64,000 nt of DNA from Chrysophaeum taylorii (Eukaryota > Sar > Pelagophyceae > Pelagomonadales > Pelagomonadaceae). Of this stretch, positions 1-62,638 are shown piece by piece. How positions within the stretch are numbered: the stretch's first letter is position 1; each line of letters begins with the position of its first letter. The notes under the pieces were generated by a model. It was given only the letters and a program-made list of their open reading frames with translations, made no database searches and was not told the DNA's origin. Where the stretch lies: the NCBI GenBank assembly GCA_029834535.1, contig JAQMWT010000007.1, positions 1 to 64,000 on the forward strand, read 5' to 3'. A program made the position numbers and the translations under genes.

Positions 1-97
1 TGTCTGTCTGTTTGTTTGTTTGTCTGTCTGTCCTCGATTTAGGGTAAGGATCAGGTAGGCGCGAGAGTAAGGATCAGGTAGGCGCGAGAGCCAGACA

Positions 98-689
98 GTG
101 ATCCTCCAAGCCGTCTACGGCGACCTCGCAGACTATTTCCACGACCCGCGGCGGCTCTTTCAGCGCGCCATTCTCACGCCCCGTCGAAACGATGTTGTCG
201 ATGCTGACAACGCGCGCATGACCGCGGCCTTTTTTTCCCGGAGACGAGGCGTCGGAGTTCTTTTCGGCTGACTAGGCTGGGTCGGAAGACGACGCCTCGC
301 TCTTTACAGTAGAGTTTTCAACTCCCTGACAACCAACGGCATGCTGACTTTGATCGCGAGCTTAAAGTCTTCGCAACCTCGACCCGTCGCACGGCCACTG
401 CAACGGTACCAGATACATGATCGATCGTGTCGTTGTCACCGAGGCTCCTCCAACCTGTATCCCTTAAGGCCCGCCGACGCCAAACGATCAACAAGAGCCA
501 GGGCCAGACGCCCCGCGAGGTCGGCGTCCTCTTGGCGAAGCCCGTCTTCTGCCACGTCCAGCTCTACGTGGCTCTCTGTCGATCGGCAACCCCGAGGATA
601 TCCTCTTCTGAGTCGACGACTCCACCCTACCCCACACGTGCTGCGCAATACCGATAAGCCCCCTCCCGGCGTCTACACGCGCACGGTAG
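98..689 (+). pseudogene. Helitron/PIF1-like helicase C-terminal fragment, copy 1
   Basis: In three frames this copy reads RRLFQRAILTPRRNDVVDADN, LRNLDPSHGHCNGTRYM, and then TINKSQGQTPREVGVLLAKP followed by CHVQLYVAL. The first two correspond to the 'ILTPRN..VDxxN' and 'LRNLDP..GLCNGTR' blocks of Helitron and PIF1 helicases. The last is helicase motif VI, normally SHGQLYVALSR. At least two frameshifts (the T run near 230 and one near 575) and an in-frame TGA before VDDSTLPH break it. The family stop is TAG at 687-689. The helicase core and the ATPase Walker motifs are absent. Confidence 0.85.
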
Positions 690-970
690 GTGAACTTACT
701 GGGACCAGGTGAACTTACTGGGGTTGGAGATTGGAACTAGGTGAACTTAGTGACCAGGTGAACTTACTGAGACCAAGAGAGCTTACTGGGGTTTTTAGAG
801 TAAACGCAAAGGTTAGCGACGTGTGCGGATCAAAGCAGCTTAGATTGGCGGGGGTGAGAGCGACGAGCTCAAAGGAGAGTGGGGTGAGTGGATGTGAGCA
901 CGAGTGGGTTTACGCCGAACTTACTGGGGTTAGAGATTGGGACTAGGTGAACTTACTGGCCTGCACTTGT
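690..970 (+). repeat. Clustered AGGTGAACTTACTGG motifs, Helitron 3' region
   Basis: Directly after the helicase stop, the 15-mer AGGTGAACTTACTGG and close variants recur many times, often joined by GGACC or GGTTAGAGATTGGGACT. A conserved segment (GTAAACTCAAAGGTTAGCGG to AGCTCAAAGGAG) lies in the middle. The same arrangement follows every helicase copy (1662-2008, 2698-3052, 3945-4255, 4953-5273, and inverted at 11110-11416, 12210-12536 and 40955-41326). I infer a subterminal region of the element, perhaps a protein-binding array; function unknown. Confidence 0.7.
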
Positions 971-1069
971 AACTACTAATCGACAGATGTTTGTCTGTTT
1001 GTTTGTTTGTCTGTCCCTCGATTTAGGGTGAGGATCAGGTAGGCGCGAGAGTAAGGATAGAGCCAGACA

Positions 1070-1661
1070 GTGATCCTCCAAGCCGTCTACGGCGACCTCG
1101 CAGACTATTTCCACGACCCGCGGCGGCTCTTTCAGCGCGCCATTCTCACGCCCCGTCGAAACGATGTTGTCGATGCTGACAACGCGCGCATGACCGCGGC
1201 CTTTTTTTCCCGGAGACGAGGCGTCGGAGTTCTTTTCGGCTGACTAGGTTGGGTCGGAAGCCGACGCCGCGCTCTTTACAGTCGAGTTTTCGACTCCCTG
1301 ACAACCAACGGCATGCTGACTTTGATCGCGAGCTTAAAGTCTTCGCAACCTCGACCCGTCGCACGGCCACTGCAACGGTACCAGATACATGATCGATCGT
1401 GTCGTTGTCACCGAGGCTCCTCCAACCTGTATCCCTTAAGGCCCGCCGACGCCAAACGATCAACAAGAGCCAGGGCCAGACGCCCCGCGAGGTCGGCGTC
1501 CTCTCGCCCAAGCCCGTCTTCTGTCACGTCCAGCTCTACGTGGCTCTCTGTCGATCGGCAACCCCGAGGATATGCTCTTCTGAGTCGACGACTCCACCCT
1601 ACCCCACACGTGCTGCGCAATACCGATAAGCCCCCTCCCGGCGTCTACACGCGCACTGTAG
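1070..1661 (+). pseudogene. Helitron/PIF1-like helicase C-terminal fragment, copy 2
   Basis: Nearly identical to copy 1, with the same seven-T frameshift and the same motif blocks. Small differences (CTCTCGCCCAAGCCC for CTCTTGGCGAAGCCC) show some divergence since duplication. Non-functional. Confidence 0.85.
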
Positions 1662-2105
1662 GTGAACTTACTGGGACCAGGTGAACTTACTGGGGTTTGA
1701 GATTGGGACTAGGTGAACTGAGTGACCAGGTGAACTTACTGGGACCAGGTGAGCTTACTGGAGTTTTTTGACAACTCAAACTCAAAGGCTGGCGGCGCGT
1801 GCGGATCAAAGTCAAAGCAGCTTAGATTAGCGGAGGTGAGAGCGACGAGCTCAAAGGAGAGTGGGGTGAGTGGGTGTGAGCACGAGTGGGTTTACGCCGG
1901 GATAGAGATTGGGACTAGGTGAACTTACTGGCCAGGTGAACTTACTGGGACAAGGTGAACTTACTGGGGTTAGAGATTGGGAGTAGGTGAACTTACTGGC
2001 CTGCACTTGTCCTAACTACTAATCGACAGATGTTTGTCTGTTTGTTTGTTTGTCTGTCCCTCGATTTAGGGTAAGGATTAGGTAGGCCCGCGAGCCAGGC
2101 AGGCA

Positions 2106-2697
2106 GTGATCCTCCAAGCCGTCTACGGCGACCTCGCAGACTGTTTCCACGACCCGCGGCGGCTCTTTCAGCGCGCCATTCTCACGCCCCGTCGAAACGA
2201 TGTTGTCGATGCTGACAACGCGCGCATGACCGCGGCCTTTTTTTCCCGGAGACGAGGCGTCGGAGTTCTTTTCGGCCGACTAGGTTGGGTCGGAAGACGA
2301 CGCCTCGCTCTTTACAGTCGAGTTTTGAACTCCCTGACAACCAACGGCATGCTGACTTTGATCGCGAGCTTAAAGTCTTCGCAACCTCGACCCGTCGCAC
2401 GGCCACTGCAACGGTACCAGATACATGATCGATCGTGTCGTTGTCACCGAGGCTCCTCCAACCTGTATCCCTTAAGGCCCGCCGACGCCAAACGATCACC
2501 AAGAGCCAGGGCCAGACGCCCCGCGAGGTCGGCGTCCTCTTTGCGAAGCCCGTCTTCTGCCACGTCCAGCTCTACGTGGCTCTCTGTCGATCGGCAAGCC
2601 CGAGGATATCCTCTTCTTAGTCGACGACTCCACCCTACTCCACACGTGCTGCGCAATACCGATAAGCCCCCTCCCGGCGTCTACACGCGCACTATAG
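2106..2697 (+). pseudogene. Helitron/PIF1-like helicase C-terminal fragment, copy 3
   Basis: Same gene remnant. Here the last coding block is better preserved and reads DILFLVDDSTLPH without the stop seen in copies 1 and 2, which clarifies the original C-terminus. The seven-T frameshift is still present. Confidence 0.85.
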
Positions 2698-3074
2698 GTT
2701 AACTTACTGGGACCAGGTGAACTTACTGGGGTTAGAGATTGGGACTAGGTGAACTTAGTGACCAGGTGAACTTACTGAGACCAAGTGTGAACTTACTGGG
2801 GCTTTTAGAGTAAACTCAAAGCTTAGCGGCGTCTGCGGATCAAAGCAGCTTAGATTGGCGGGGGTGAGAGCGACGAGCTCGAAGGAGAGTGGGGTGAGTA
2901 GGTGCGGGTTTACGCCGAACTTACTGGGGTTAGAGATTGGGTTTACGCCGAATTTACTGGGGTTAGAGATTGGGACTAGGTGAACTTAACGGGAACAGGT
3001 GAACTTGCTGGGGTTAGAGATTGGGACTAGGTGAACTTACTGGCCTGCACTTGTCTTAACTACTAATCGACAGA

Positions 3075-3119
3075 TGTTTGTCTGTTTCAGTGTTTGTCTG
3101 TTTGTTTGTTTGTCTGTCT
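3075..3119 (+). repeat. TGTC/TGTTTG microsatellite
   Basis: Simple repeat of TGTTTGTCTG type between array units. Equivalent tracts lie at 1-33, 989-1014, 2030-2058 and 4287-4318. This is the sequence context in which the LINE 3' ends sit. Confidence 0.9.
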
Positions 3120-3276
3120 TTAAATGTCGACTGCTAAGAGGGGGGGGTGTGTGGGGGGAGCATGAAGGATGTGGGTGGGTTTGTGGGGTATGAGGGATGT
3201 GCCTGACGGGCGGAGATAAGTACGCGGGACCTAGTCGGGGTCATCGCCGAGGCGTGGGGCAGGCGAAGAGAGGACG
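3120..3276 (-). mobile_element. RLE-type LINE 3' end, 5'-truncated
   Basis: The complement matches the last coding bases and 3' UTR of the LINE at 41960-47435: ACCCCGACTAGGTCCCGC, then GTCAGGCACATCCC, then CTCTTAGCAGTCGACATTTAA. It sits inside the microsatellite between array units 3 and 4. Short, 5'-truncated copies are typical products of target-primed reverse transcription. Confidence 0.85.
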
Positions 3277-3352
3277 TTTGTCTGTCCCTCGATTTAGGGT
3301 AAGGATCAGGTAGGCGCGAGAGTAAGGATCAGGTAGGCGCGAGAGCCAGACA

Positions 3353-3944
3353 GTGATCCTCCAAGCCGTCTACGGCGACCTCGCAGACTATTTCCACGAC
3401 CCGCGGCGGCTCTTTCAGCGCGCCATTCTCACGCCCCGTCGAAACGATGTTGTCGATGCTGACAACGCGCGCATGACCGCGGCCTTTTTTTCCCGGAGAC
3501 GAGGCGTCGGAGTTCTTTTCGGCTGACTAGGCTGGGTCGGAAGACGACGCCTCGCTCTTTACAGTAGAGTTTTCAACTCCCTGACAACCAACGGCATGCT
3601 GACTTTGATCGCGAGCTTAATGTCTTCGCAACCTCGACCCGTCGCACGGCCACTGCAACGGTACCAGATACATGATCGATCGTGTCGTTGTCACCGAGGC
3701 TCCTCCAACCTGTATCCCTTAAGGCCCGCCTACGCCAAACGATCAACAAGAGCCAGGGCCAGACGCCCCGCGAGGTCGGCGTCCTCTTTCCCAAGCCCGT
3801 CTTCTGCCACGTCCAGCTCTACGTGGCTCTTTGTCGATCGGCATCCCCGAGGATGTACTCATCTGGGTCGACGACTCCACCCTACCCCACACGTGCTGCG
3901 CAATACCCGTAAGCCCCCTCACGGCGTCTAGACGCGCACTGTAG
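3353..3944 (+). pseudogene. Helitron/PIF1-like helicase C-terminal fragment, copy 4
   Basis: Same remnant, in the unit that follows a LINE 3' insertion. It reads DVLIWVDDSTLPH near the C-terminus. Carries the shared seven-T frameshift. Confidence 0.85.
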
Positions 3945-4361
3945 GTGAACTTACTGGGACGAGGTGAACTTGCTGGGGTTGGAGATTGGGACTAGGTGAG
4001 CTGAGTGACCAGGTGAAACTGTGACCAGGTGAACATACTGGGGTTTTTAGAGTAAAGGGTTTTTAGAGTAAACTCAAAGGTTGGCGGCGCGTGCGGATCA
4101 AAGCAGCTTAGATTGGCGGAGGCGAGAGCGACGAGCTCAAAGGAGTTGGTGTGAGCTAGGTGAACTTACTGACCAGGTGAACTTATATGAAACTTACTGG
4201 GACCAGGTTGACTTACTAGGGTTAGAGATTGGGACTAGGTGAACTTACTGGCCTGCACTTCTTCTTCTTAACTACTAATCGACAGATGTTTGTCTGTTTG
4301 TCTGTCTGTCTGTCTGTCCCTCGATTTAGGGTAAGGATCAGATAGGCCCGCGAGCCAGACA

Positions 4362-4952
4362 GTGATCCTCCAAGCCGTCTACGGCGACCTCGCAGACTAT
4401 TTCCACGACCCGCGGCGGCTCTTTCAGCGCGCCATTCTCACCCCCCGTCGAAACGATGTTGTCGATGCTGACAACGCGCGCATGACCGCGGCCTTTTTTT
4501 CCCGAAGACGAGGCGTCGGAGTTATTTTCGGCTGACTAGGCTGGGTCGGAACACGACGCCTCGCTCTTTATAGTCGAGTTTTCGACTCCCTGACAACCAA
4601 CGGCATGCTGACTTTGATCGCGAGGTTAAAGTCTTCGCAACCTCGACCCGTCGCACGGCCACTGCAACGGCACCGGATACATCATCGATCGCGTCGTGTC
4701 ACCGAGGCTCCTCCAACCTGTATCCCTTAAGGCCCGCCTACGCCAAACGATCAACAAGAGCCAGGGCCAGACCCCCCGCGAGGTCGGCGTCCTCTTGCCC
4801 AAGCCCGCCTTCTGCCACGTCCAGCTCTACGTGGCTCTCTGTCGATCGGCATCCCCGAGGATATACTCATCTGGGTCGACGACTCCACCCTACCCCACAC
4901 GTGCTGCGCAATACCGATAAGCCCCCTCCCGGCGTCTACACGCGCACTATAG
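4362..4952 (+). pseudogene. Helitron/PIF1-like helicase C-terminal fragment, copy 5
   Basis: Last plus-strand copy. It ends in TAG at 4950-4952 and is followed by AGGTGAACTTACTGG motifs to 5273. Carries the shared T-run frameshift. Confidence 0.85.
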
Positions 4953-5273
4953 GTGAACTTACTGGGACCACGTGAACTTACTGGGGTTTGAGATTGGGAC
5001 TAGGTGGACTGAGTGACCAGGTGAACTTACTGGGGCCAGGTGAACTTACTGGGGGTTTTAGAGTAAAGGGTTTTTAGAGTAAACTCACAGGTTGGCGGCG
5101 CGTGCGGACCAAAGCAGCTTAGATTGGCGGAGGCGAGAGCGACGAGCTCAAAGGAGTTGGTTAGAGCTAGGTGAACTTACTGAGTAGGTGAACTTATATG
5201 AAACTTACTGGGATTAGGTGAACATACTGGGGTTAGAGATTGGGACTAGGTGAACTTACTGGCCTGCACTTGT

Positions 5274-5403
5274 ACAATTTACAGAAAAAAGTGACACATA
5301 CAAAATTTTATGTACATAAAATGACACTTATAACAATTAAATGCACTAAAATTTCACATATAACAAATATTATAGTTCATATGACACATATAGCCACTGC
5401 GCT
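5274..5403. other. AT-rich spacer
   Basis: AT-rich stretch with loosely repeated TGACACATA / TTCACATATAACA units between the Helitron array and the gypsy mini-element. No gene seen. Confidence 0.5.
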
Positions 5404-16511: not shown

Positions 16512-16800
16512 TCTTTGAATACGATAAGATGTGTGAAGCCTCCCCATTCTGATGGGATGGTCACATAGCCGCCGTCGCACGCCCAGACTTCGCCGGCTTT
16601 GTGAGTTTGCTCAAAAGAGGGCTTGGTCGGATTGAAGTGCTTGTGCGGGTGGCGCTTGTTGTGTGCGATGCAGTCGGTGCATAAGTTGCGATACGGTATG
16701 TCAGAGGCAGAGAAGCCAGGGCGAGCCAGTACGTTGGGGGCCTTGGCAGCGACGTTGTCGGGGCAGTGGTGCACCCGGTGGAAGCGATTGGCACGTTCTT
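16512..16800 (-). pseudogene. Copia integrase N-terminal fragment
   Basis: HHCC-type zinc-binding region (RFHRVHHCPDN, then LCTDCIAHNKRHPH), followed by VWACDGGYVTIPSEWGG, whose Asp matches the first catalytic residue of the integrase core. The core is truncated soon after. It is in a different frame from the preceding domain because of a frameshift near 16780. Confidence 0.7.
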
Positions 16801-18930
16801 TGGCGTTGAGGTACTCGGCAGATCCGTGTGCGAAGGACTTGCGAGGAATGGGATGAGCGGGAATATGACGTTTGCGCCGAACATGAACTTGAGTTCGGTG
16901 TCCAAGGCAGGGGGCGGCGGTGCGTCGTCATCCTGGTGCGCAGCAGGGTTACTTGGAGGTGCATCCTCATCATCACGAGTAGCGAGAGTATCTTCGTAGG
17001 ACGAAGATATGTAGTTTAACGACATTTCGGTCAAGCAGTTGCTGGAAATGGACATCATTAAAGCTTGTGCCAAAGACAAGGTATCTGTACTGCACGTGGT
17101 GGGGGCCTGATCAAGGGTCATAAAGTTGGATACATAGGATTTCTTCGTCACGGCCGCAGTATGTTGGAAGGTAGGGTCCAACATAAGAGATTTAATATCG
17201 GCAACGAGGAGCGAAAGGTGCTTGTACAGTGTACTGTACGTACCGGCAGACAGAGCATTGCTGAGCATGTCGCAGCAAAGGTCGTGGCGAAGAGACAAGA
17301 GGAAAGATTCCTGTTGTTTGGTGTGGTTGTTAGCACGAATCAACTCCGGTCGAGTGGGGTAGCGTAATTTCCCGTTGCGAGGGTCGAGTAAAACAATGTT
17401 GGCATACCCTCGGACGGTGGGCAATGGAGCAAGCATGGAGTGGATTTTAGAGCCGAGTTTGCGGTCACTTCCACGAAGATGCCCTATATAGCGACTATGA
17501 GATAAGTGGTGATCTTCCAGAGCAAAATGAGAATCTTTTTTGTCGAAAGAGTTGTCGGTGGCCTTGTAGGTAAGGCAGCCAGGCATTACAAGAGAGCATC
17601 TGGACAAGAGCTTTTGTATGGCGGTGCCATAGGTGGCAGCGGAGCCAACTTGAGGAAGGGCTTGGATTATCCACAAGTAACCCATAAACGGCTCCAAATA
17701 TATAGATCTGTCCCTGTCGCGGGGGACGTTGGAGGCAGTAAACGTATACGTGCTTCCAAACGCGTCAATGGAAGCATGATATTTGGTGGCGGCGTTCTCT
17801 ATGGTGAGGTTGCCGTCAGAATGGTGGCCACCGGTTAGGAAGTAGGTATTGTGTGATGTTGATGAGGTTGTAAGTAGTAACCTATGTGACGGTTGGTCAG
17901 TTTCGAAAACGGTTATGTAATAGGACACAGGAGTGGGTGAGTTAGTGTGCAATCTGGCAAACACGTTATAGAGGATTGTAAAAGCCTTGACGTGTAGTGG
18001 GTTAGTGGCATGAGGCAGCGGCTCCATGGAGGAGCGTTTGAAACACAGCTGATGATAAGTACACTCGGATTGAACAGAGTGCGTGCGTTGCTCGTGAGCC
18101 TGTTGTGAGTGAAGGCGCAACAATAACATATTGAGTGTTTCAAGGTCAGCCATAGTAAGCTGAACAGAACCTGTGCGAGAGTAAGGTGCAAACGTTTTAG
18201 GAACGGGGACATATGGAGGATCGTCGAACACCCGGATCCAATCTTTGGAGATGTGTTTGGGTAGCCAAAGTCGCTTAGGAATGGCTTGTAAGTCATCAAC
18301 GATCTTTAGGAAGGGGCGTGGATGGAGGATGGGCCATGACAATGTGTTAATTGGTCCAGTAGAATACCTGCGTGCGATGCAGATCCATCTTCCCCTAGAT
18401 TGGTAGTCGCCACATAGGTAGGTCGGGAACCTGTCAACAACATCAACACAGTAACCGAGTGTGGAATGGATGAGATTGGCCACAGTTATGTGGTCTTGAT
18501 GACAGTACTTGTGCGGAGGCGTCATCTCAGCCAGTAGTACCAGGGGTTGGAGTAGCTTGATGACAGACAGCATGCTGTCGAAAAGAGAGTCGTCCAGCAG
18601 GCTGTGTAAGTCTTCGGTCTTATGCTGCTTTAGTAGATTCCTGTTCGTGCAGGAAGGAGTAATCTCAATGATATCACAATAAAATTTGCGCCTTTCCTCT
18701 GGTGAGATTAGGTGAAGATGGTTAATAAAGGCGGGGTGAGATTCAAATAATAATACTGTAGGGAAACGGTCAAATAATAATACTGTAGGGAAACGGTGGC
18801 GTAACATACGAACAAGCGTATCGTCAGACTCAACAACAACTTTTTACATTGATATTTAAGCCTAAGTCATTAGTGGCTTGAGACAGGGACGCTGGGGTTG
18901 ACAAACCAGAACAAAGTAACATGACAGAGG
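16801..18930 (-). pseudogene. C5-cytosine methyltransferase-like domain of copia element 1
   Basis: Motifs along the minus strand: VMLLCSGLSTPA (motif I, about 18889-18925) and VVVESDD (II); PSCTNRN (IV, about 18640), where copia 2 has the canonical Pro-Cys order; AEMTPPH (VI, replacing ENV, about 18520); CGDYQSRGRW (VIII, about 18390); PELIRANN (IX) and LSNALSAGTYSTLYKHL (X, about 17225-17320). A large variable region lies between VIII and IX, where family members place target recognition. It sits between protease and integrase. A frameshift near 18835 and a 27-bp duplication (RFPTVLLF twice, 18752-18806) damage this copy. SNCLTEMSLNY follows at about 17011. Activity is doubtful here. Confidence 0.75.
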
Positions 18931-18979
18931 GTTTGCGAAGATTGGGCTCTTGCGAGAGAAACACTGGGCGAGATAGCAT

Positions 18980-19930
18980 TCAGGTCAATGGCGGTGTGTT
19001 TTGCTGGACAAACTTGTTCTGTTTCCGAAGATTAAGAACCAAAGGACGAATCCACGGGCGATCTGGTAAAACTCTTTTGAGGAGATAATTGTAATATGCC
19101 AGTAGATCCCTGTTTTCATGGTATCGCTTGAGCGGAAATGCGAGGGAGCGAAGTTCGAGTTGCTTGTCGCGAGAGATGTTGTAGGTGAGACGAGGGAGAG
19201 CAGGTAAATTAGCTGCTATGTCGTGTATGGGAATACGTACATCTTTGTCTATGCGGCTCGTGACAGCGCTGAGCTTTGGCTCTGATCGATCATTGAACAC
19301 AGTGGTCAGGTTCGACTGGTTCCACTCGAGCATGCTCAGGATAGCGAGATGTCGGTCGTGCACTGGCTGAAGACATAAAGCGAAATCGATCTTGACATAG
19401 CCAATTTGTGGATGATCTGGTAGGGGAACAACTATGTTACGTGTTAGCATCATGTGTGAGGCACGTTGTTGTCCAGTGGCAGTTTGAATAACAATCGGCG
19501 CGTATTTGGAGTCCACTGGAATAATGTGATTTGGTATTGCAAAATCGTACGTGGACATCAAGGATATGGTAGCACAAGAGTCAAAATATAAAAAGGAACA
19601 ATGTTGAGGGACACTGTTTACCTTCATATAGTTGGTTAGGAGTGCATTTTCCGAATGCGGGCAAGTAGTGGAGAGGCTGGCAGTGAAGAAGTTCTCCAGA
19701 AATAACAAGAAATTTGGAATGATAATCGGTTGAACAGGTGGTGATGGTTCGTCAGCCTCATCAGCCATGCTGTGCTTCTCCTCAAATGACGATAGCGAAG
19801 TCTGATCGACATCCCTTTTGGTTTCGGCTTGTGGTGGTTGGTTGATGGCAGATTGGACCTGTGAAGATAGCGAGGACAGTAACGCTGGTGGTAAAGCCGA
19901 TATGGCGGAAGCAGCAAAGAAGTTTGGCAC
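18980..19930 (-). pseudogene. Copia protease region
   Basis: Contains FLYFDSCATISLMSTYDF (about 19540-19590), the aspartic protease active site in the D-S-C-A variant, also seen as DTCAS in copia 2. It is preceded by Pro/Ser-rich text and ends PPLT with TGA at 18980-18982. The frame is open after that TGA into MLLCSG of the next domain, so the stop separates protease from methyltransferase in the same frame. Confidence 0.75.
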
Positions 19931-19943
19931 AATATTGGAGGGA

Positions 19944-20560
19944 TTACCCTGTGTGTTGGAGGCATCCTTGGTATCTGTAGTAGGAGGAGTTGCCTGCTAC
20001 TGGGGTGGGAGCAGTATCAACAGTATGATGTTGTGGCTCCACGTAGTTGAACGACTTTTCGGTCGAGGATAGATGAACGTCTACATCATAAATGATGTCT
20101 TCTGCGAACATGAGTTGTTCGTTTAGGCTAAGTAAGTCACTGTTGTCCTCCGTAGATGTCGTTGACGGAATGTCAGCGGATTGCAATAGAGTCTCAAATA
20201 ACTTGTTGATATTCTGTTGTAGCTGAGCCGTGGTATCATTATCTGTCACATGCTTCGTAAGTTCGCTACACTGCTCTTGCAGTGTGTTTGAGGTGTGCTT
20301 CGTTCGATCTAATAGATTCATGCTCGATCGAGAGGACCTGTCAAAAGTGCGGGGGTAAATTGGGCGATCATGGGACCGTCCAGTAGTTTTCTTGGTGACA
20401 TAAGAATCACCAGAACGATAGTATGATAGATCGCTGCGAGAGAAAGGCTGGCGAGCATCATTAGAGTTACGCAAGCGTCTAGCATTAAACGTGGAAGATG
20501 TACCAGATTGAGACGAAGTAATGAACGCGAGTGTGTTAGCAGTTTGAGTCAGACTTTTGT
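19944..20560 (-). pseudogene. Copia gag C-terminal region
   Basis: Polar region containing SSRSSMNLLDRTKHTSNTL and ELTKHVTDNDTTAQLQQN, probably coiled coil. It parallels SNMSLMDRATYQVDRLRHLF of copia 2 (about 55490). It ends in STEKSFNYVEPQ, a variant of the LTEMSLNY peptide found elsewhere in the window. Confidence 0.6.
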
Positions 20561-21249: not shown

Positions 21250-22152
21250 TCAACAAAGAGTACCAAAGTCGAATTGAAGGTCAGTCTCTTCCTGGTTAAG
21301 TCGGTAAGAGATTTGCCTGAATGCTAGGACAGCTTCGATAAAGACATGGACATACCAGCTAGGATTATAAACAACAGAGTTAAACTGCTGTTTCAAGTAG
21401 GACACATCAGTAGTCGTAACAGACTCGTAGTGACTAAAGGCAATGAGCATAATGGCTCGAGCCTTGTTGGGCAAATAACTTTTGTTATACACCTCATTGA
21501 TGGCGGGCCAGGCCACAAGTGCTGGTTTTCCTACACTTTCAAGATAGAAATAAGTATGCAAGAATGTAGCATACGTATTCTGACAAGTGTGCCAGTCAGC
21601 AGCAGTTAACGAAAACATAGTAACAGCGGCACGAACACGGGTGTCAAAAGCTAATGCTTTCGGCTGCGCGCGATTTAAGATTCGTTCCTCTTCTAAGAAA
21701 CGAGGATGGATTTCACGGCGTAATGCCTTGACTTCATTGTCGTAACAGACAGTAGCTAGCTGAGCTACTTCTGCATCAGGTAAGTTGGGGAAAGCTTCGT
21801 TGGTGAAATGCCATTCCTGATACTCAGGGGGCAATTCATCAACAGCTAAACGGAGATCAGCAGCCCTATCGGTCTTCCATTCCAGGAAAACGCGATCGAG
21901 AATTTGATTCCGGAGGATCTCGTAGTCCTTGCATGACCGAGTGTATGCTTCGTACGAGTCGTACTCGAGGAAGGCATCGGCATGACTGGACCGTAATAAT
22001 TGTTGAATATGCTTTATTTGCAAGGATACCTTGCGGGTTTGAAGCTGAAAGCGGTTTCCTTCGTTAAGAAACTCAACTACAGGAGCTTCGAGCTTCAATA
22101 TATCCGCACCTGTGATCGCCTTGGGTGCGGCTCGTGCTGCGTGTTCTGCCAT
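21250..22152 (-). pseudogene. Copia gag, N-terminal part
   Basis: Begins MAEHAARAAPKAITGADILK at 22152. Conserved with copia 2 gag: KVSLQIKHIQQLL/KVSLQIEVLRRHM, SYEAYTRSCKDYEILRNQI, YATFLHTYFYLESVGKPALV and PNKARAIMLIAFSHYESVTT. A TGA at 21250-21252 interrupts a frame that continues KIYEEIHQHYADN, matching EEIYRLYAN of copia 2, so this is a nonsense mutation. No zinc knuckle is seen. Confidence 0.75.
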
Positions 22153-22252
22153 AGCAGTTGACGGGGAACCTGTGGGTTCAGTCACGCAGTTGACACTGTC
22201 TAGACATTCTAAGGGGGTCTGTCTATCGGTGTCTATGTACACTCATTCGTTG

Positions 22253-53203: not shown

Positions 53204-53599
53204 TCCAGAGAGCTACACTATTAAGTGTGCGACACTGGAACATTTTCACACCTATCTCTACACGAGGGTTTTCTCTCCGTAATACGGCTTTCCCTCTCCC
53301 TTCCTTCCTTACCCTTCCGCCCTTTTATCTCAGATTATGAAGAACCCAGTCTGAAGCTCTTTTCCAACATGGAGTAGGCCTCCAGGTGCGTACCGTCAGG
53401 TACGGGGTTTTCTGTTTAATTAACAGAGGCTTCGTTCCTCGTTGTCAGTGTAAACGCTTCTATGGGACCTAATGTCCTTAAGGAGTTAGGGCTTAAATCC
53501 CTACCTTGTGTAGTAGCATGTGACAAGCGGAATGGTCTGTACACGCCTAAGACTGCACGCAGTCTCTACCATGTACCCGGAGAGGGTCAAATCTCTCCA
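53204..53599 (+). repeat. 5' LTR of copia element 2
   Basis: 396 bp, TCCAGAGAGCTACACTATTA to CAAATCTCTCCA. Matches 33371-33788 and 63813-64000. Inner blocks CTTTTCCAACATGGAGTAGG and CCTCCAGGTGCGTACCG. Confidence 0.85.
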
Positions 53600-53613
53600 G
53601 GTTATGGGCCCAG
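53600..53613 (+). other. Primer-binding site, half tRNA-iMet
   Basis: GGTTATGGGCCCAG directly after the LTR, complementary to the anticodon arm of initiator tRNA-Met; identical in copia element 1 although the LTRs differ. Confidence 0.85.
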
Positions 53614-54040
53614 ATGCGTAGGTGTGTCAGCCCAACTGTGTTGTACGTCTAAATGGAGTGATCAATTTACGCCTGATCACGAGTACAATGCGACAATGTG
53701 TTTGGCGGTGGTCTACTGTACATATTTGTTGTGTGACGGTATGTGCCCACCAGTTAATTTGGTTTGTGACCGAGTTGGGTCGGTCACTGGTCACATGCAC
53801 TCGCATAACCAATAAAATTAAAATTTTTCCTATACAAGCCGCGGAAACTTGTACGGGTTTTTCCTTCCATTCCCCAACAAAAGACTGACTGCTCGAGAAC
53901 TAATCCATTCTTCAGTCTCAAGTCACCCTGTTTTAAATAGCATGTTGATTTGTTTGGTCTTGTCAATAAGCCCACGTTTAAAATAGCGTACTGTACATAG
54001 AACCCGCACTTGAGAAACCTTTCATTCTTATGTGTCGAAT
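53614..54040 (+). other. Copia element 2 leader
   Basis: 427 bases between primer site and gag. Short palindromic words (GTGACCGAGTTGGGTCGGTC, 53766-53785) could form hairpins, as packaging signals do. No ORF of note. Confidence 0.5.
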
Positions 54041-56002
54041 ATGTTTATCAATCCTATAACCTATTTCTCAATAGGTCACAGTCATGTCAAAACAAAAACA
54101 ATATCTACCACTGATATCTACAAACAAGAACAAATCCTCGTTGATAAAATTAACGCAGGATTGCGTTTCCAAGATAACTCAACCAAGGTGAGCTTGCAAA
54201 TTGAGGTGCTTCGCAGGCATATGACAAGTCCATATGTGGACGCGTTATTCTGCTTCGATTCATATGAAGCTTACACCCGGAATGCTCCGGAATATAATCA
54301 ACTTCTTGAACAAGAAGTTGATATCATCTTCGCTCAATGGAAAGCTGAACAAGTTAACGATTTAAACTTACCTGATGAAGATGCCCTGCCCGAACATTTA
54401 AAGACTTGGCACGTCAACTCTTCCCATCAACTAACAGTTGATGTCCGTAATAATCTTGAACGACTTTACTACCAAGAGTCGTATAATCTTGTTCGTCCTG
54501 AATTAAATAAGGATGTCAAACGTGTCCTCACTTTATTAGATACCCGATTCCCTAAATCAATTGTGTATGATTCATCTTTAACTAACATATCCTTTACAGG
54601 TCTCTCTAATGCCGATTGGATCAAACACTGCGAAACTTATGCTGGTTTCTTGTACACATTCTTTAATTTGGAGTCACAGGAAAAGCCCGCTCTCGCTATG
54701 TGGCCTCAACTAAAGAAAATTTATGCAATTACTGCACATCCCAATAAATTACGTGCTGTAATGCTTTTAGCCTATCATTACTATGAGACAGTGTCTTGTA
54801 CAGATGTAACTGAGCTTAAATCTCAGTTTAATCGAATGTCTCTAAATGTTAATTGGTATGCCCATGTATTTGTCGAACAACTCCTTGCCTTTCAATCTCA
54901 GGCAAAGCAATTAAATAATGATGAAGCATCAATCCAATTTAATAACTCCATAATCACTCTTAAAGCTCACGAGGAGATCTACCGTCTATATGCTAATCCC
55001 TCGGATCACGAGCGCTATTCTCAATCTTTATTGGAATGGTGTAAACTCTACGAGACACGCTCTGGTAACAACTCGAGTCACGATCCCGAATTGTTAAAGC
55101 TAGTTGATCCTAACGACGTTCGTCCACTATTGGAATTCTTGTTAAAGATATACAATGAGACAAAGTTTTCTTCTAACCGACGCTTGGATAAACCCGCTTC
55201 CTGGATCCCTTACATCCCTGGTACTACCGCTACCAAGCCACCTAAGGTTTTATTGATGGATACTATTCATCAATCCCACGACTCTCTAAACAACGCTTAC
55301 TCGTTGTTAGCTACTGTAGCTGGACAGTCTGGCTTCAACGCTCGTAAGCTTCGTAATGCAAAAGATAAAGCATCGACAATTTCACCTCGTGACACGTCGT
55401 ACTATCGTCCACCTCAAATTATAACGTCAAAGGTACCAGCTTCGATCGTCCTGTCTACTCATCTTCCTCTAACCGTAATGCACGCTCTAATATGTCTCTT
55501 ATGGACCGGGCTACTTATCAAGTTGATCGTCTTCGCCACCTGTTTGGTAAATTACAGGAAGCGAATCCCAATCCTTCCACCGACTCTAAAATGGTACAGG
55601 AGGAAATGAAAAGCTTATTGAGTACCCTCTGGACAACCGCTTCTCAAGCTTCGACACAGTCCTTAGATCCTGATGAAGCCACCCAAGTTCATCTCTACTT
55701 ATCTCGAGTTGATACTATGTCCAATACCATATCGAACCTCTTAGAAGCCGATAAGGAATCTCTTGTTTCAGAAGAAAAGTATCAAACTGAAACATCTGCT
55801 CCTGAAGCGTCCCCAGTGATGCGGAGCAGAGGGGGACTGCTGATACAGAGAAAATGTTCCACACTTTTCTGTCCATTAAAGATGATGAAATCGATAACAT
55901 CCCTCAGCCGCTATTGCAGCACATAAATGCTAAAGCTCAGAATGCTATCGTTCGTCGTCAAGCTCGGGAAACTTCCTCGCACTCTGAGCTCCCCAGTAAT
56001 TA
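54041..56002 (+). pseudogene. Copia gag
   Basis: ATG 54041 (an in-frame GTG lies at 54032), MFINPITYFSIGHS. Conserved blocks with copia 1: KVSLQIEVLRRHMTSPYVDA, CFDSYEAYTRNAPEYNQLLE, YAGFLYTFFNLESQEKPALA, PNKLRAVMLLAYHYYETVSC, EEIYRLYAN. Long (over 600 residues) compared with ordinary copia gags. Frame changes near 55500 and 55830. The C-terminal part has MDRATYQVDRLRHLFGKLQE and KMVQEEMKSLLSTLW, probably coiled coil. A TAA near 56000 precedes protease. No zinc knuckle. Confidence 0.75.
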
Positions 56003-56630
56003 AGATAATGAAGATGGATATGCTGACACATGTGCTTCTCAACATGTAATTAACTTTAAACGTTATGCTGATCCTATCCACATCGTAAAGCTACCCGAGT
56101 CCTTATCACCTGCTATCCAGACTGCTACGGATACGCAGAGAATCACACATGCTATGATTATAAGGACCGTCATTCCCGCTCTCCCAAAGCATCCAAATGT
56201 GGGATATGTAAAGCTAGACGTTGCGCTTTTTCTACCCAAGCAAAACGACCATAACGATCCCGATCTGCACATCATCAGTATGACTCAATGGGGAGAAGAT
56301 AAACTTGGTATACATCTTTATGGAGTTGAATTTAAAGGACAATCATCTATCCAGAGTAAAATTGATGATAATGTCAAGATTACTTTGTTTAGACTCAGTA
56401 ACCTGTTGCCAACTCTACCAATTTACTCGCTACAACAAGCAAAAGCGCGTAAAATGGAACTTCGCTCACTACAGTTCAGACTATGTGCTTTTAATGAACA
56501 ACGCGAAATGCTCAAACTATATTCCACCCTCATGGAACGAGTAATTTACGTCCCATGGCTTAAAACCATCCTGGAGTCAATGCATTCGCAGCTGCCTTAC
56601 ATACGCAAGCATTTCCCACCTCCTGTATGA
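56003..56630 (+). pseudogene. Copia protease
   Basis: DGYADTCASQHVINFKRYAD (about 56010-56070) carries the active-site DTCAS, a D-T/S-C-A variant shared in kind with copia 1 (DSCAT). IIRTVIPALPKHPNVGYVKL and LHIISMTQWGEDKLGIHLYG match copia 1 (IVVPLPDHPQIGYVKIDFAL). Ends PPPV with TGA at 56628-56630. The frame continues open past it into the methyltransferase domain. Confidence 0.72.
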
Positions 56631-58440
56631 CGCAAGGTTACAACACGTTTGCTCCATACAGTAACTTCATCTCCTAGCCCACGAATACCTACAGTAACTT
56701 TACTTTGCTCTGGGATGTCCACTCCTGCATTCTTGGCTTGCGCTTCTAATGACTTGCAAATCAACATCAACGTTAAAGTTCTTGTTGAGAGCGACGACAA
56801 TATCACGCACATGCTACGAAGACGTTTTGGTAATTCCATCGAAGTTTTCCCATCCTTACCTAAGTTTTTGACATATCTCCATCGAGCATCGGACGTTGAA
56901 CGTGCACGATATTACACTGACATAGTGGAATTGACATCACCATGCACAAATCGCAACATAATCAATGGGAGATCCATTTCCACCTTCGAGCGCGATATGG
57001 ATGATTCCTTGTTCCCAAGTGCTCTAAGTGTACTTGAGCTTTTAAAGCCGCTTGTTCTCTTCATGGAAATGACTCCACCACACTCCGCATCGTATGAAGA
57101 TCATATACGAGTTGCTAATCTCATCTTCTCAACGATGCACTATACGGTGGACATATGTGACCGATTTCCATGCTATTTATGTGGAGATTATCAAGCCAGA
57201 GAAAGATGGATCCTCGTCGCACGCAAATATAACACCGGCCCTCTTGATCTGCTTTCATGGCCTAATAAACGAGTCACTTCCTTTCTGGATATTGCAGACC
57301 ACGCTAATTCCATCAGTCGCAAGTTAATAGTCGACGAACCTTGGACGCAGGTCTTTCCTGACATACCATTCGTGTCCACACCTAAAACCTACAATATTTT
57401 CAGTCGTACAGGATCCGTGCGCTTAACTGTGACTGAGCTTGAAACCTTAACTATGCTGTTCCTTCGTCTGCACTCTAATAAAACAGTCGAACATCCCAGT
57501 CAAGATGAAATGGACGGCATTTCCAACTTTCGCCTGGGATTCTTGACTAATTCAAGAAAACCACTAGCTTGCATGAGAATCCCTATTGAACTCAAAGCTT
57601 TTGTGCTCCTCTATAATATTATGGGACGATTATTCCCTAAATCCATCACATTACCTGTGTCCTTTCGTATTACAACTATCGAATCTAACCAACCATCTCA
57701 CAGGTTATTCTTAAATAAATCCTCTACTTCATCTATCATTTACATCACTGGTGGAAGACGTACAGGCGGAGACACAACAGTTTCTAACTCTTCTTCTAAA
57801 TACCAGGCACACATAAATGCTTTTGGCGAAACCTACGCCCTTTTAACACACGATACCGGAATCGACAAGACTGCTTCTCTCGAACCAGTTGCCGGTTTTC
57901 TTTGGCTTTGCCAAACATACCATCATCATAATGAATATCAAGACACGCGTCGTCTAGTACAAGCATTGGTTCCCTATACCTCTCCTGTATTTCACGATTC
58001 TTTCGTCTTCTACCCTCAGGAAAGTCGTCTTGAATTTATCGACAAAATATTTGCTTTAAGTGACATGCATTTGTCCCAAAGCAGATATTCGGGCTTTATA
58101 ACATCAAGCGATAGGAAGATGGGTGCCAAAGTTCATTCTATAATACTCCCACTCCTACCATTCGTGGATTTGCTAATATGCTGGTGTACGATCCACGACT
58201 CGATCGCATTCGACACTACTCAACTCGCGAATTGGCACGCGCCAATAACTTCACAGCGTACCAAATCAATTTTCTTTTGTCTTTGTCCCCTGACCTATGC
58301 TGTGATATCATCGCAAATGCTATTCCAGCTGGAACATATCATACAATTTATAAACACTTGTGTCAGCTTGTTTACGACTTGCGTACATTAACGCTATCAC
58401 CATCGTTTGACCCTGATCACGCTCCTCTAACCAAAAACTA
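56631..58440 (+). pseudogene. C5-cytosine DNA methyltransferase-like domain of copia element 2
   Basis: Probable DNA cytosine-5 methyltransferase. Motif I PTVTLLCSGMSTPAFLACAS (56686-56745). Motif II KVLVESDDN. Motif IV ELTSPCTNRN with the catalytic Pro-Cys (about 56930-56960). Motif VI LFMEMTPPHS (Glu of ENV kept; about 57060-57085). Motif VIII CGDYQARERWILVARKYNTG (about 57180-57235). Then a large recognition-like region (SRTGSVRLTVTELETL, FITSSDRKMGAKVHS). Motif IX STRELARANNF (58217-58250) and motif X CDIIANAIPAGTYHTIYKHL (58303-58362). One frameshift near 58160. All key residues match copia 1 apart from its Ser before the Cys. Expected role (inference): methylating element DNA or cDNA. 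Confidence 0.8.
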
Positions 58441-59364
58441 TAGGTCAACCTTCTTCACAAATATATTCCCAACAGATACATCCTTAACATTACACCAGAG
58501 TTCCATTACAATGTTCTACATCTCCAATAAAAAACTCTTATGTTGTGATACTATCACTTCTAACCACGAACTTCCTTCTTTTCATACTGATTCAGTAGCT
58601 CATGCTTTCCTCTCTAACATCTCATCCGCAGATATATCATCTCCTACTAAAGAAAAACAAATACCCCTTATAACGCCAAGACAGCTCCATGAGAAGCATG
58701 CGCCCTTCGATAAGAAAGTCCATGCCAGGGGCACCCTTGCATTTCGAGATGCGCAACAACGAGCTACCAATTTTCACAACATTCACCATTCCAGTGATTC
58801 TCAAGCCATAAAAGCTGTTCAGGTTATTGCCAGTCCTGGACACCACCCATCTGACGTACCCTACCGTAAGTTCTGTGTGGATTGTACGATTCATAAAAAC
58901 GCTTTCCTCATCCACACCACCTTATCAAGCAACCATCATTCGAAAAATTTTTCAACCTGGTGCAGCTTCGGCATGTGACGGTGGTTATGTCTCTGTGCTC
59001 TCGGAATGGGGATCCTTTCGACATATCATTTTTCAAGTGTCTCATTTCTAAATTTCTGTTAGTGTACTTTTGTCGTAGCACTAACTCCAGCGAATTTTGT
59101 AACGCCCTTGAGTTTGTCCGCAATTTTTGCTCTACTTATGTTCATGTACAACTAAAACAAATCTATTGTGATTCCTTTAAACCCTATTTATCTCAGCATG
59201 TTACAACCCCCTTCCGTGTGGAACATGGTATTAATATGTCCGCGTTCCCCCCTTACTTACATGTCTTTAATCATGAAGTCGAAGCCGCTGTTGGTCACAT
59301 AGCCACTGCCGCGTCTACACGACTCGGCATATGCTTAATGTTTCCTATAAAGGTCACCCCCTAA
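58441..59364 (+). pseudogene. Copia integrase
   Basis: After a linker, NFHNIHHSSDS and YRKFCVDCTIHKN form the HHCC zinc region (about 58770-58905). Core: ASACDGGYVSVLSEWG (first Asp 58978-58980), IYCDSFKPYLSQH (second Asp 59170-59172), FNHEVEAAVGH (Glu 59275-59277, 35 residues later), the D,D-35-E pattern. Frame changes near 58950 and 59050. Confidence 0.78.
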
Positions 59365-60330
59365 CAGATCCGGCACCACACTACCCGTGGGCTGTTATAC
59401 ATGCTATCCAATCATATAATCTCCTCCCTAACGTTTCCCTCGAACGTATTTATAATAAAGTCCTAAGCCCCCAACAAGTTTTGTTAGACCAATGTAATGT
59501 TCCCCAACAAGACTACCTCAAACCTTTTGGTTCTGTTTGTTATTTGCATTTGGAACCTAACGAATTTCATAAATATGAACCCCGATGTCGTCCCTACATC
59601 TACTTATGCGGTGCTAACGTTATAAACCCTTTAATAACACCCCATGTTAATCATTTAGCCGATGTTGTCCTTAATCCTGAAAACGGTCAAGTCCGTGTTT
59701 CCTCTAAACTGACTTTTCCCCATCTTATTTCTAAATCTCCTCCTGATTATGAACAACATCCACCTCCCGCACCTTCACCCGACATTCCCTTCTCTGTTCA
59801 CAGCACCCCCAATGATGCGGCGCAGAGGGGGAATGCTATGCCTACCGACACTGACCATGAGAGGGGACTCCTTCTTCTCATCTCCATGCTCCCTCTCCCG
59901 CTCCCGCAAGTCCAGCTGCTCCTGCACCCGCTACTTCCGCCACCACACCTACATCTGAAGTGTCTCCCGACACTCTGCCACTTTTACCATCTTATCGGTC
60001 TCTCTATTCCCAGGATGTCCTCCGTCTCACCCGTGGTCCTCATCACCCTCAGCCTCGTCGCAAAACCAATCTCAAGGATGTTCTTACTCGTATTGCTTCG
60101 CCTACTGTTGCCGCTTATAAACAAGCCGGTGGTACGCTTGCCGACTTCAAGTATGACCTCTCCAAGCAGTACATAACATTCTGCGACCCCACCCTCCACT
60201 CCCTTCATCTCGCTCATGGCATCCACTGGACGGCTATACCTCCAGAGGGGGTTTACACCATCCCTTCATCACCATGTGCACCAAGCGATTTCACAGTCCT
60301 CTTCAGTTATGTGTCATAGGAGCCATAGCC
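59331..60330 (+). pseudogene. Copia integrase C-terminus and linker
   Basis: SYKGHPLTDPAPHYPWAVIH, LSPQQVLLDQCNVPQQDYLK, FGSVCYLHLEPNEFHKYEPR (the usual 'FGc.ay......K...r' region) and YIYLCGANVINPL, then a Pro-rich linker. Changes frame near 59830 and 60180. Confidence 0.7.
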
Positions 60331-61060
60331 ACCCATCGCCTGATGCTCCTCATGTCCACTTCTACGACGACGTCAACCTTGCCGATTTTCACCTTCCTCA
60401 AGCTCTCGTTCATTTAATTTCTGAACATGCTCACGCCTTTCAAGTTCCTCCCGCTCAATATGCTTATGCTTTGGTCACGCCCCACTCCATTTTGGATCAT
60501 AATGACGCTTCTTATGGTGCTTCCGAGCCTCATCTCTCCGCCATCGAAGACTATATCACCGTGCAATCGCATTACATTGAAGCCCACCTTGGTGATGCTC
60601 CTCTACTAGTCGTTCAACTCATCGAAGATCCCGATCACGCTCATCTGCCAGATAATGTCGCTTCTTACGCAATTACTCATCTGACGACGACTCATGATCC
60701 CAGCACGGTTGGTTCGGACGAATACAAGATTCAAGCCAAAGATATCAAAATTGATGAATATGAGTTGAACTGCCTCAAAGGTCTCTCAGACGCTGATCGC
60801 AAAGCTTATGTTGCTGCCATCTCCAAAGAGATTTTTGACATTGTTAAGTTTGGCTGCTTTAAACTAGCGCTGCCAATGGTCAACTCAAAGCCTATTGACA
60901 CCCGCCTCGTCCTACGTATAAAAACCAACGCTGCTGGTCAGTACATTAAACATAAAGCACGCCTGGTCCTACGAGGATTCTTAGCCTCTCTGGGCACCGA
61001 TTTCTTCAACACATTCAGCCCTATGGCACAGCTTACTGGCATCCGTTGTGTTTGGCGCTA
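60331..61060 (+). pseudogene. Copia reverse transcriptase, N-terminal part
   Basis: ADRKAYVAAISKEIFDIVKF, GCFKLALPMVN, RLVLRIKTNAAGQYIKHKAR, LVLRGFLASLGTDFFNTFSP: the standard copia RT entry blocks. Joined by a frameshift at about 61050 to the next ORF. Confidence 0.85.
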
Positions 61061-62638
61061 GCAGCTCATCTGCGACTTCCCGTCTATCATGTCGACGTCC
61101 CTAACGCTTTTTTTCAAGCTCCCATCGATTCGCATGTCTACGTTAAACTGCCACAAGGCATTTACCTTCTCGATCCCGAAGATACTAAATACCAAGGCCG
61201 CCGTCTCCCAAAGCTACTTAAATCTCTCTATGGATTGCGTCAGAGCCCTGCCCTTTGGAATCAAACCACAAACAGCTTCTTTGATTCATTAGGCTACACA
61301 CGATTTCGAACAGACACATGCATTTACGCTAAAGTCCAAGCTGACGCTACATTTATAATTTGCACGCTCTCAGTAGACGACGTCGTCATTACTTGTACTT
61401 CGGAAACTCTACGTCGTGAGTTCCAGCAAGCCCTGAAAAAGGAATACTCAGTCGACACCTTCGAGGAAGTCCATACTCTCCTAGGCATGCGCATAACGCG
61501 TACAACAGATGGCTCTATATCACTGGATTGTCAGGCTAAACTTGACGCATTGTTCGAAGAGTACCCCATTTTAATGCAATTACGTCCCACTTCTACACCG
61601 ATGTCACCATCAACCACGTATAAAACTGGAGAGCCATCTTCTGATATGGACAAGTTCATCCTTCATACCTTCTCTACGCTACTCGGCAAGCTCACGTTTG
61701 TTCAATTGGCCTGTCGCCCTGATTTATCCCAAAGCCTTAGTCGTTGCTCTCGAGGAATGCATAATCCAGCATTTCTGCATGTTCAAGTACTAACAGGAAC
61801 GCTCCGCTACTTGCGTAAGCCCGAAAATCGCAATCTTCGCCTCTGGTACTACTCTGGTTCTTCCGCTCTAATGGACCATCTTCGACTTCTTATCGGTAAT
61901 CGTACTGACATGGCCACCATGTTGGACTACACTAAAGAACAAGTTAATTCAGGTAATTTTGATCCACTGGTCGCATTCGTTGATGCCGATAATGCACCTT
62001 CTTATGAACAAGACCGCAAATCTACAACAGGCTACGCCATCTTTTTGTTTGGTTCTCTCATCACTTGGAAGTCTAAGCTACAGCCTATAACAGCTACTTC
62101 TACGCATGAGAGTGAACTTATCGCCCTCAATATGTGTGCCGATGATGTGATTTGGTTACGCAAATTGCAAACGGAAATGGCCTTCGTTATATACCCACCC
62201 TTCTATCTTCGCCAACCTTCAGGGAAAGATTTGCTACTAGATTATGATGCTCAAGACAATCCCCTCCCATCGGACATGTCGTTCATACGTAACAGTCCCA
62301 TACTTGGAGATTCGGCCTCTGCTATTCATCTATCAAATAACCCCGACAGCGCGACTAAGGCTAAAGCTATCAGCACACGCTGGTTCCGTATACGCGACTA
62401 CGTACAGTTAAAACGAATCCGCCTACATCATGTTTCCGGTACCCATAATATCGCCGATGGATTTACCAAACCCTTTGGAGCTCCACTTTTTCAGCTGATT
62501 TCGCACGTTACTCGGCTTACAACAACCCATAGCTCAACAATATGGTTAATCATTACCCTCCATTATGTCCGAAATGACTTTAAACTAACCCTGCTATGCA
62601 CAGGATACTGGCTTGCTAAAATGCGAAATGCTACATAA
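61046..62638 (+). CDS. Copia reverse transcriptase and RNase H
   Basis: Open 530-codon frame. RT: YHVDVPNAFFQAPIDSHVYV (Asp 61094-61096), LPKLLKSLYGLRQSPALWN, TLSVDDVVITC (two Asp, 61376-61381), then the connection LLGMRITRTTDGSISL. RNase H: VAFVDADNAP (Asp 61982-61984), RKSTTGYAIFLFGSLITWKS, STHESELIALNMCADDVIWL (Glu), KAKAISTRWFRIRDYVQLKR and VSGTHNIADGFTKPF (last Asp). All active-site acids are intact. Confidence 0.92.
   Translation: MCLALAAHLRLPVYHVDVPNAFFQAPIDSHVYVKLPQGIYLLDPEDTKYQGRRLPKLLKSLYGLRQSPALWNQTTNSFFDSLGYTRFRTDTCIYAKVQADATFIICTLSVDDVVITCTSETLRREFQQALKKEYSVDTFEEVHTLLGMRITRTTDGSISLDCQAKLDALFEEYPILMQLRPTSTPMSPSTTYKTGEPSSDMDKFILHTFSTLLGKLTFVQLACRPDLSQSLSRCSRGMHNPAFLHVQVLTGTLRYLRKPENRNLRLWYYSGSSALMDHLRLLIGNRTDMATMLDYTKEQVNSGNFDPLVAFVDADNAPSYEQDRKSTTGYAIFLFGSLITWKSKLQPITATSTHESELIALNMCADDVIWLRKLQTEMAFVIYPPFYLRQPSGKDLLLDYDAQDNPLPSDMSFIRNSPILGDSASAIHLSNNPDSATKAKAISTRWFRIRDYVQLKRIRLHHVSGTHNIADGFTKPFGAPLFQLISHVTRLTTTHSSTIWLIITLHYVRNDFKLTLLCTGYWLAKMRNAT

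Follow-up and report, generated by a model that had tools for sequence, protein, structure and literature searches.

A C5-methyltransferase-like domain in the Pol of Ty1/Copia retrotransposons of the pelagophyte Chrysophaeum taylorii

Elements 1 and 2 and family B of the alga Chrysophaeum taylorii (Pelagophyceae) are Ty1/Copia LTR retrotransposons. Pol of these elements starts with a C5-methyltransferase-like domain, in elements 1 and 2 in the order protease, UGA, methyltransferase, integrase, reverse transcriptase (RT) and RNase H. The observations comprise this order, the homology of the domain, conserved catalytic residues and a conserved UGA, as well as purifying selection and a high number of copies. 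The best explanation, which is drawn from sequence and is given a probability of about 0.6, is that a Pol-linked methyltransferase is made by readthrough of the UGA and methylates the element's own cDNA. An element might in this way place marks on the DNA copies that it makes. The window, i.e., the whole stretch of DNA analysed, comprised positions 1-64,000 of contig C7 (JAQMWT010000007.1), and the assembly searched held 70.8 Mb in 697 contigs. The published genome of C. taylorii has 702 contigs and 71 Mb, and the strings 'transpos' and 'repeat' are absent from the main text of that paper (PMC10366177). A RuBisCO large-subunit gene on contig C697 has its best PDB matches among entries that appear to be diatom enzymes, in keeping with this host.

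Element 1 lies on the plus strand of the window. Its 5' LTR (53204-53599, 396 bp) and its 401-bp 3' LTR share 96% identity in an alignment of 401 columns; the 3' LTR starts at 63813, reaches the window end at 64000, continues to C7:64213, and is preceded by a GAGGGGG tract. The 14 nt adjoining the 5' LTR (53600-53613) are complementary to the anticodon arm of the host tRNA-Met(CAT) and are likely to be a primer-binding site; their complement was found in two tRNA-Met genes of the host predicted by ARAGORN (L071 and L072). Drosophila copia is primed by part of tRNA-Met. The sequence 3' of the family-B LTR differs from the primer site of element 1. The gag-like frame (54014-55606) gave no Pfam match and was named from its position 5' of the protease-like region. 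A C-terminal gag-like piece follows in another frame (55393-55923) and is the same protein as part of an open frame in copy L055. The protease-like region (56004-56627) likewise gave no Pfam match; in L055 it is read in the same frame as the C-terminal part of gag. Copia proteases usually read DSGAS at the active site; at that place element 1 reads DTCAS. The variants recorded for individual copies were DSCAT (L029), DTCAS (L055) and DGGAS (L059).

The in-frame UGA between the protease-like region and the methyltransferase of element 1 is located at 56628-56630. The methyltransferase frame (56631-58388) holds motifs I, II, IV, VI and VIII and the long region between motifs VIII and IX, and is out of frame past approximately 58140. 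Motifs IX and X and a zinc-finger-like region of the integrase are read from the next ORF (58115-58975), followed by pieces of the integrase core with an SH3-like domain (58897-60173; PF25597 with an E-value of 5.8e-6, just under the cut-off; rve with 0.0058 in copy L055). The Copia-type RT and RNase H region occupies two frames (60177-62635), with RVT_2 (PF07727) matches of 7.7e-8 and 9.2e-27, both above the cut-off. The window copy contains several frame changes; other copies keep the methyltransferase open from motif I to motif X.

Element 2 lies on the minus strand and has the same order as element 1 as far as its sequence reaches; by eye, the likeness stops in the integrase near 16.5 kb. 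It consists of a gag-like ORF without a Pfam match (21253-22242), placed as in element 1, a protease-like ORF (18983-19996), an in-frame UGA (18980-18982), the methyltransferase N-terminus with motif I (18844-18979, motif I at 18896-18919), and the ORF with motifs II-X (16564-18843), after which the integrase is in another frame. A frameshift at approximately 18843 separates motif I from the remaining motifs, and the copy seems to be interrupted near 20.6 kb by another repeat. The first-pass annotation had proposed a diverged second motif series in the window, and it was recovered at 16564-18979. From methyltransferase through integrase, elements 1 and 2 share 47% identity over 1007 columns; between the RT of element 1 and that of another element-2 copy, identity is 57-64%. 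Just beyond the window, at C7:69669-70337 on the minus strand, another RVT_2 match, which falls into the score class associated with element 2, probably marks a third Copia copy on this contig.

The assignment to Copia was examined by RT, domain order and LTRs. RVT_2 was matched at 9.2e-27 in element 1 and at 1.6e-38 in family B. SH3_retrovirus and rve pieces were found upstream of RVT_2, i.e., integrase precedes RT; the rve matches were weak (E-values of 0.0054-0.0061) and SH3 was under the cut-off. In addition to the LTRs of element 1, the LTRs of family-B copy L059 were 89% identical over 208 alignment columns. Inspection of the flanks of the elements for a target-site duplication gave no clear one.

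All motifs quoted in the first-pass annotation were located in element 1 in the order I, II, IV, VI, VIII, IX, X. The positions, which were counted by hand from the ORF translations, are 56700-56723 for LLCSGMST (I), 56784-56798 for VESDD (II), 56937-56957 for SPCTNRN (IV), 57066-57083 for EMTPPH (VI) and 57189-57209 for YQARERW (VIII). After the frameshift near 58140, RELARAN (IX, 58226-58246) and NAIPAGTYHTIYKHL (X, 58316-58360) are encoded in the ORF 58115-58975; in 13 of 20 element-1 loci, motifs IX-X share one open frame with motif I. A pattern scan covered 51 loci, namely 50 loci of elements 1 and 2 (L009-L058) plus L066, and one locus could match more than once. It returned 46 matches for motif I, 47 for IV, 49 for VI, 50 for VIII and 49 for X; strongly altered motifs would escape such a scan, and the pattern for motif IX, with 21 matches, fitted the element-1 form only. 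The catalytic Cys was present in 46 of the 47 motif IV matches (Phe in the remaining one) and Glu in all 49 motif VI matches. Both Arg residues of Q.R.R were found in 50/50 motif VIII matches, the second being demanded by the pattern itself.

Pooled NG86 omega was 0.09 for element 1 (13 copies) and 0.18 for element 2 (11 copies), values that are biased low because the best-scoring and open-frame copies were taken. By part, omega was 0.07 for the core, 0.09 for the VIII-IX region and 0.08 for IX-X in element 1 (13 of 20 loci, open from motif I to X), and 0.12, 0.24 and 0.09, respectively, in element 2 (11 of 30 loci). Since the motif series recurs over the 51 scanned loci and omega is low, the series is not attributed to chance. 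Motif VI reads EMT instead of ENV in elements 1 and 2, and approximately 290 residues separate motifs VIII and IX; both features bear out the earlier suggestion of an unusual, diverged branch. The VIII-IX region evolves faster than the core in element 2. In C5 enzymes the target-recognition domain lies between motifs VIII and IX, and by analogy the long stretch probably serves as such a domain.

A genome-wide search with the PF00145 profile gave 57 matches. One locus (L001) is a host Dnmt2-type gene with 100% identity over 360 residues to CTAYLR_008533, and another (L002) is a further host DNMT, which may be DNMT5-like, judging by a motif and its 2086-aa frame. Six further PF00145 loci examined (L003-L008) align as one Copia family, family B. 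All five family-B loci scanned (L003-L007) matched PF00145 with E-values from 5.1e-12 to 6e-9; three neighbouring ORFs of the scanned loci gave no PF00145 match. The 1952-aa Pol frame of copy L059 contains, in this order, a protease-like region, DNA_methylase (1.1e-7), rve (0.006) and RVT_2 (1.6e-38). Family B also matched TIGR00675 (7.5e-11 and 8.7e-9, both below the curated cut-off) and a PHROG DNA methyltransferase (2.5e-12), and its best match by sequence in the structure database was M.HhaI, at an E-value of 0.11 only. IIAGGLH, LPCQH, IVEN(V/A) and SK.RY were present in 8/8 family-B loci, motif IX in four and motif X in five of the eight. A perfect 217-bp tandem duplication lies between 5' LTR and gag in L059 (positions 957-1390).

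The domain of elements 1 and 2 is almost certainly a relative of C5-methyltransferases, as judged from the comparisons with family B and a host DNMT and from its position at the same place in Pol. Direct searches were negative. The first-pass annotation had treated a missing DNA_methylase match as evidence against its own reading, and at E<=1 Pfam indeed gave none for either window ORF; this result is overridden by family B. Pfam, NCBIfam, PHROGs and PDB sequences returned nothing for the methyltransferase of elements 1 and 2 when window ORFs or intact copies were compared, and viral contigs held no relatives of these methyltransferases. Searches of 5.8 billion proteins gave no relatives for the element-1/2 alignment among the 7998 scored candidates sharing most words, and none for residues 130-330 of family B among 331 scored candidates.

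Profile comparisons connected the families. A hidden Markov model (HMM) built from family B and L002 recovered nine of nine element-2 copies with E-values of 1.8e-7 to 1.9e-3, the best of 902 decoys reaching 0.23; none of 13 element-1 copies scored significantly. A model of all the methyltransferases collected gave a best E-value of 0.006 (decoys 3.0). Models of the Dnmt2-type alone and of family B alone failed to separate real from shuffled sequences (best real scores of 2.6 and 0.2 bits, decoys of 3.4 and 4.2 bits), and a Dnmt2 core model gave real scores of up to 13.2 bits against 10.2 bits for one of 984 decoys. The best E-value should be read with caution, because four profiles were tried and only the two mixed-family ones separated real from shuffled sequences. 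With hhalign, the combined elements matched the mixed profile with a probability of 81.8%, an E-value of 1.1e-5 and a score of 50.5; 60 column shuffles scored 24.9 or less and the reversed profile 20.6. Element 2 alone reached 87.7%, 3.4e-6 and a score of 53.6 (shuffles of 23.2 or less). A single target was used in these comparisons, so that the E-value equals P. Element 1 alone, at an E-value of 0.51, was inside its own null; it is linked through its 47% identity to element 2. Shallow profiles missed the link between the families (P of 0.08). Without shuffle controls, the combined elements gave a P of 0.0031 against the Dnmt2-type, 0.011 against family B and 0.099 against L002 alone.

BLASTP also connected family B to element 2, in a stretch that begins in the motif IX region and includes motif X and the integrase (23% identity over 541 columns, E-value of 1.1e-18; 2e-19 in a second comparison). 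In a MAFFT alignment with 29 proteins from a Dnmt2-type search, motifs IV, VI and VIII of both window elements fell on those of the proteins; motif I was aligned for element 1 only, the element-2 row beginning after it. AlphaFold gave a useless model from the window rows only (pLDDT of 30.8). With Dnmt2-type rows in the alignment, pLDDT was 73.5 and pTM 0.74, and the top Foldseek matches of this model were DNMT1, with DNMT3, M.HhaI and Dnmt2 lower; since Dnmt2-type rows had been included, the model is a test of compatibility and no independent proof. With its RVT_2-bearing carrier and the family-B link, the earlier view that a Copia element has a C5-methyltransferase-like domain inserted after the protease and before the integrase is upheld.

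In element 1, 19 of 20 loci have a TGA at a distance of exactly 24 codons upstream of motif I, followed by CGC in 17 and CAC in two. In element 2, this distance is 21 codons in 18 of the 22 loci whose motif I was readable (it was unreadable in 8 of 30 loci), and the TGA shares the frame of both the protease-like region and the methyltransferase. The 18 contexts of element 2 were TGA CTA (11), TGA ATG (5), TGA CTG (1) and TGA CCA (1); TGA ATG is also read in the window copy of element 2. TGA CTA is a strong readthrough context; as the following codons are mixed, the context in element 2 is not uniform. No stable RNA structure was detected after the UGA in five of five stretches (z of -0.51 to 1.27). 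Family-B copy L059 is arranged otherwise, its gag and pol lying in different frames that overlap. The first-pass annotation had placed the enzyme in a gag-pol polyprotein; its linkage to Pol was retained, and the single open gag-pol frame was replaced by a junction with a conserved in-frame UGA. As possible alternatives to readthrough, translation might start anew at an ATG close by, or the UGA might be bypassed in an unusual manner, as was concluded for the Candida element Tca2 (PMC2194720). Like elements 1 and 2, Tca2 is a retrotransposon with an in-frame UGA; in Tca2 it lies between gag and pol, no methyltransferase is mentioned for it, and the UGA-flanking sequence alone gave no readthrough in Saccharomyces cerevisiae (PMC2194720).

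Genome-wide, at least 75 places were scored for element 1, at least 59 for element 2 and at least 68 for family B; these counts are lower bounds, except that one place per family was counted twice via contigs C10 and C297. A first look had given 1545, 1741 and 830 candidates, respectively, and the place counts resulted from merging neighbouring pieces by hand (84 element-1, 67 element-2 and 79 family-B rows). On C10 and C297, all three families match at nearly equal offsets, and the assembly therefore seems to hold duplicate or haplotype contigs. Three RVT_2 loci, chosen from 150 listed for differing profile ranges, all had methyltransferase sequence upstream; one belonged to family B and two to element 2, one of them decayed. 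A fourth, on C483, was chosen for its long frame and is an element-1 copy. A methyltransferase-free Copia element was not found among these four loci. The ratio of observed to expected CpG was 0.90-0.99 in the elements, 0.92-1.42 in bins of the window, and 1.26 and 1.46 at two host DNMT loci; as the elements are only slightly under the host stretches, there is no strong sign of long-standing CpG methylation.

The proposed course of events starts with a minority of ribosomes that would read through the UGA. The methyltransferase made in this way would enter the particle together with integrase and RT and would methylate double-stranded cDNA before or at integration. New copies would consequently arrive already methylated, and might pass as host DNA or be shielded from a defence against unmethylated DNA. 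Activity of the domain on DNA is considered probable. A precedent is provided by DIRS-borne DNMTs, which methylated CG de novo in yeast (PMC5890265).

Several other readings were weighed. The domain might be an RNA methyltransferase with Dnmt2-like chemistry, acting on the genomic RNA of the element or on the tRNA-Met primer instead of DNA. The C5 fold serves DNA and RNA alike, the element shows complementarity to the tRNA-Met anticodon arm, and an RNA target has been proposed for a LINE-borne DNMT (PMC5890265). This is nevertheless quite improbable: the long VIII-IX stretch is unlike Dnmt2, and family B has M.HhaI as its best sequence match in the structure database, at that E-value of only 0.11, and keeps PCQ and ENV, which is a weak point since Dnmt2 has both too. 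Loss of catalysis, with the domain retained in Pol for nucleic-acid binding or as a structural component, would fit the replacement of ENV by EMT, the lack of library matches and the extreme divergence. It is rated as rather improbable in view of the conserved Cys (46/47), Glu (49/49) and Q.R.R (50/50, second Arg required by the pattern) and a core omega of 0.07-0.12. The reading as a chance series of motifs in an unrelated insert of Pol would explain the failure of direct profile searches; it is contradicted by the family-B link (HMM, hhalign and BLASTP), the MAFFT motif alignment and the motif conservation, and is extremely improbable.

A reading that has readthrough, packaging and cDNA methylation in common with the preferred one differs in the last step: self-methylation would recruit host silencing to new copies and so restrain the element and limit damage to the host. 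DNMT5 methylation represses young Copia elements in the diatom Phaeodactylum (PMC9998398), and in C. taylorii a minimum of one more host DNMT exists (L002). An element would, however, presumably be under only weak selection to silence itself, and the copy numbers are high; self-restraint is regarded as unlikely. The repression in Phaeodactylum, together with the heavy linker-DNA methylation shown by a pelagophyte, indicates that hosts among related algae actively use methylation as a defence, as far as described in PMC9998398.

DNA methylation is one of the main eukaryotic host weapons against transposons, and elements that carry the enzyme reverse the roles. As the first-pass annotation had stated, retrotransposon-borne DNMTs are known, namely from LINE and DIRS elements of Symbiodinium and Gypsy elements of Klebsormidium (de Mendoza 2018, PMC5890265); none of those described there is a Copia element, and Copia elements of Symbiodinium are reported to lack a DNMT domain. 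SymbioLINE-Dnmt and SymbioDIRS-Dnmt3 resemble the C. taylorii elements in having a C5-methyltransferase within the retrotransposon coding sequence under purifying selection and in their abundance, with hundreds of copies (PMC5890265). The carriers differ, being LINE and DIRS in Symbiodinium and LTR/Copia (RVT_2) in C. taylorii, and the SymbioDIRS copies are of the Dnmt3 type. KnitGypsy-Dnmt3 of Klebsormidium nitens likewise is an LTR-type element with a DNMT in Pol; it is a Gypsy element of a charophyte with a Dnmt3-type enzyme and fewer copies, whereas the C. taylorii elements are Copia elements of a stramenopile with a very diverged enzyme (PMC5890265). DIRS elements with Dam-like N6-adenine methyltransferases also combine methyltransferase and retroelement, but with another enzyme class (PMC5890265). 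PMC12344493 names DNMT3 in 'LTR Copia and DIRS' elements, without data in the passages concerned, and refers to the 2018 paper, in which the LTR element is Gypsy; its own main text contains neither 'stramenopile' nor 'pelagophy'. Among the matches listed from the open-licence PMC literature, neither a Copia case backed by data nor one from a stramenopile was found.

The C. taylorii elements are a further lineage of methyltransferase-bearing retroelements, in another superfamily and another branch of eukaryotes, and they are abundant in the 71-Mb genome of a cultured alga. Self-marking of cDNA by retroelement methyltransferases would be readable there from native methylation on copies of different age. 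A wider reading is put forward tentatively, at slightly less than even odds. A whole Copia clade, of such age that RT identity between its families is only approximately 35%, would have carried the C5-methyltransferase as a standard module of Pol since its common ancestor, with its own variant of motif VI, a greatly enlarged target-recognition region, UGA readthrough and methylation of cDNA in the particle. Retroelements would then have captured such an enzyme independently once more, for the first time in Copia and in stramenopiles, and the clade may account for much of the host's Copia load.

Some minor observations were made. The element-1 copy on C483 (L064, C483:22400-25500) has a long open Pol frame that starts inside the VIII-IX region; over the 3.1 kb examined, this frame is without motifs I-VIII and open through the integrase. 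Positions 1-5320 of the window hold five tandem copies of a unit of approximately 1 kb, which recurs in inverted orientation at 11.1-13.2 kb and 41.3-41.8 kb. The tRNA-Met pattern had six exact matches in total. Four of these hold only the 3' half of the tRNA, from the anticodon arm onward: L068 (C130:33771-33891), L069 (C441:84860-84980), L070 (C407:109420-109540) and L073 (C671:201915-202035). No tRNA was predicted in L068 and L069 by ARAGORN and Rfam, nor in L070 and L073 by ARAGORN. All four end in CCA, which is not encoded in the full genes L071 and L072, followed by TGTGA or TGTTA, and they look like reverse-transcribed tRNA halves inside a repeat.
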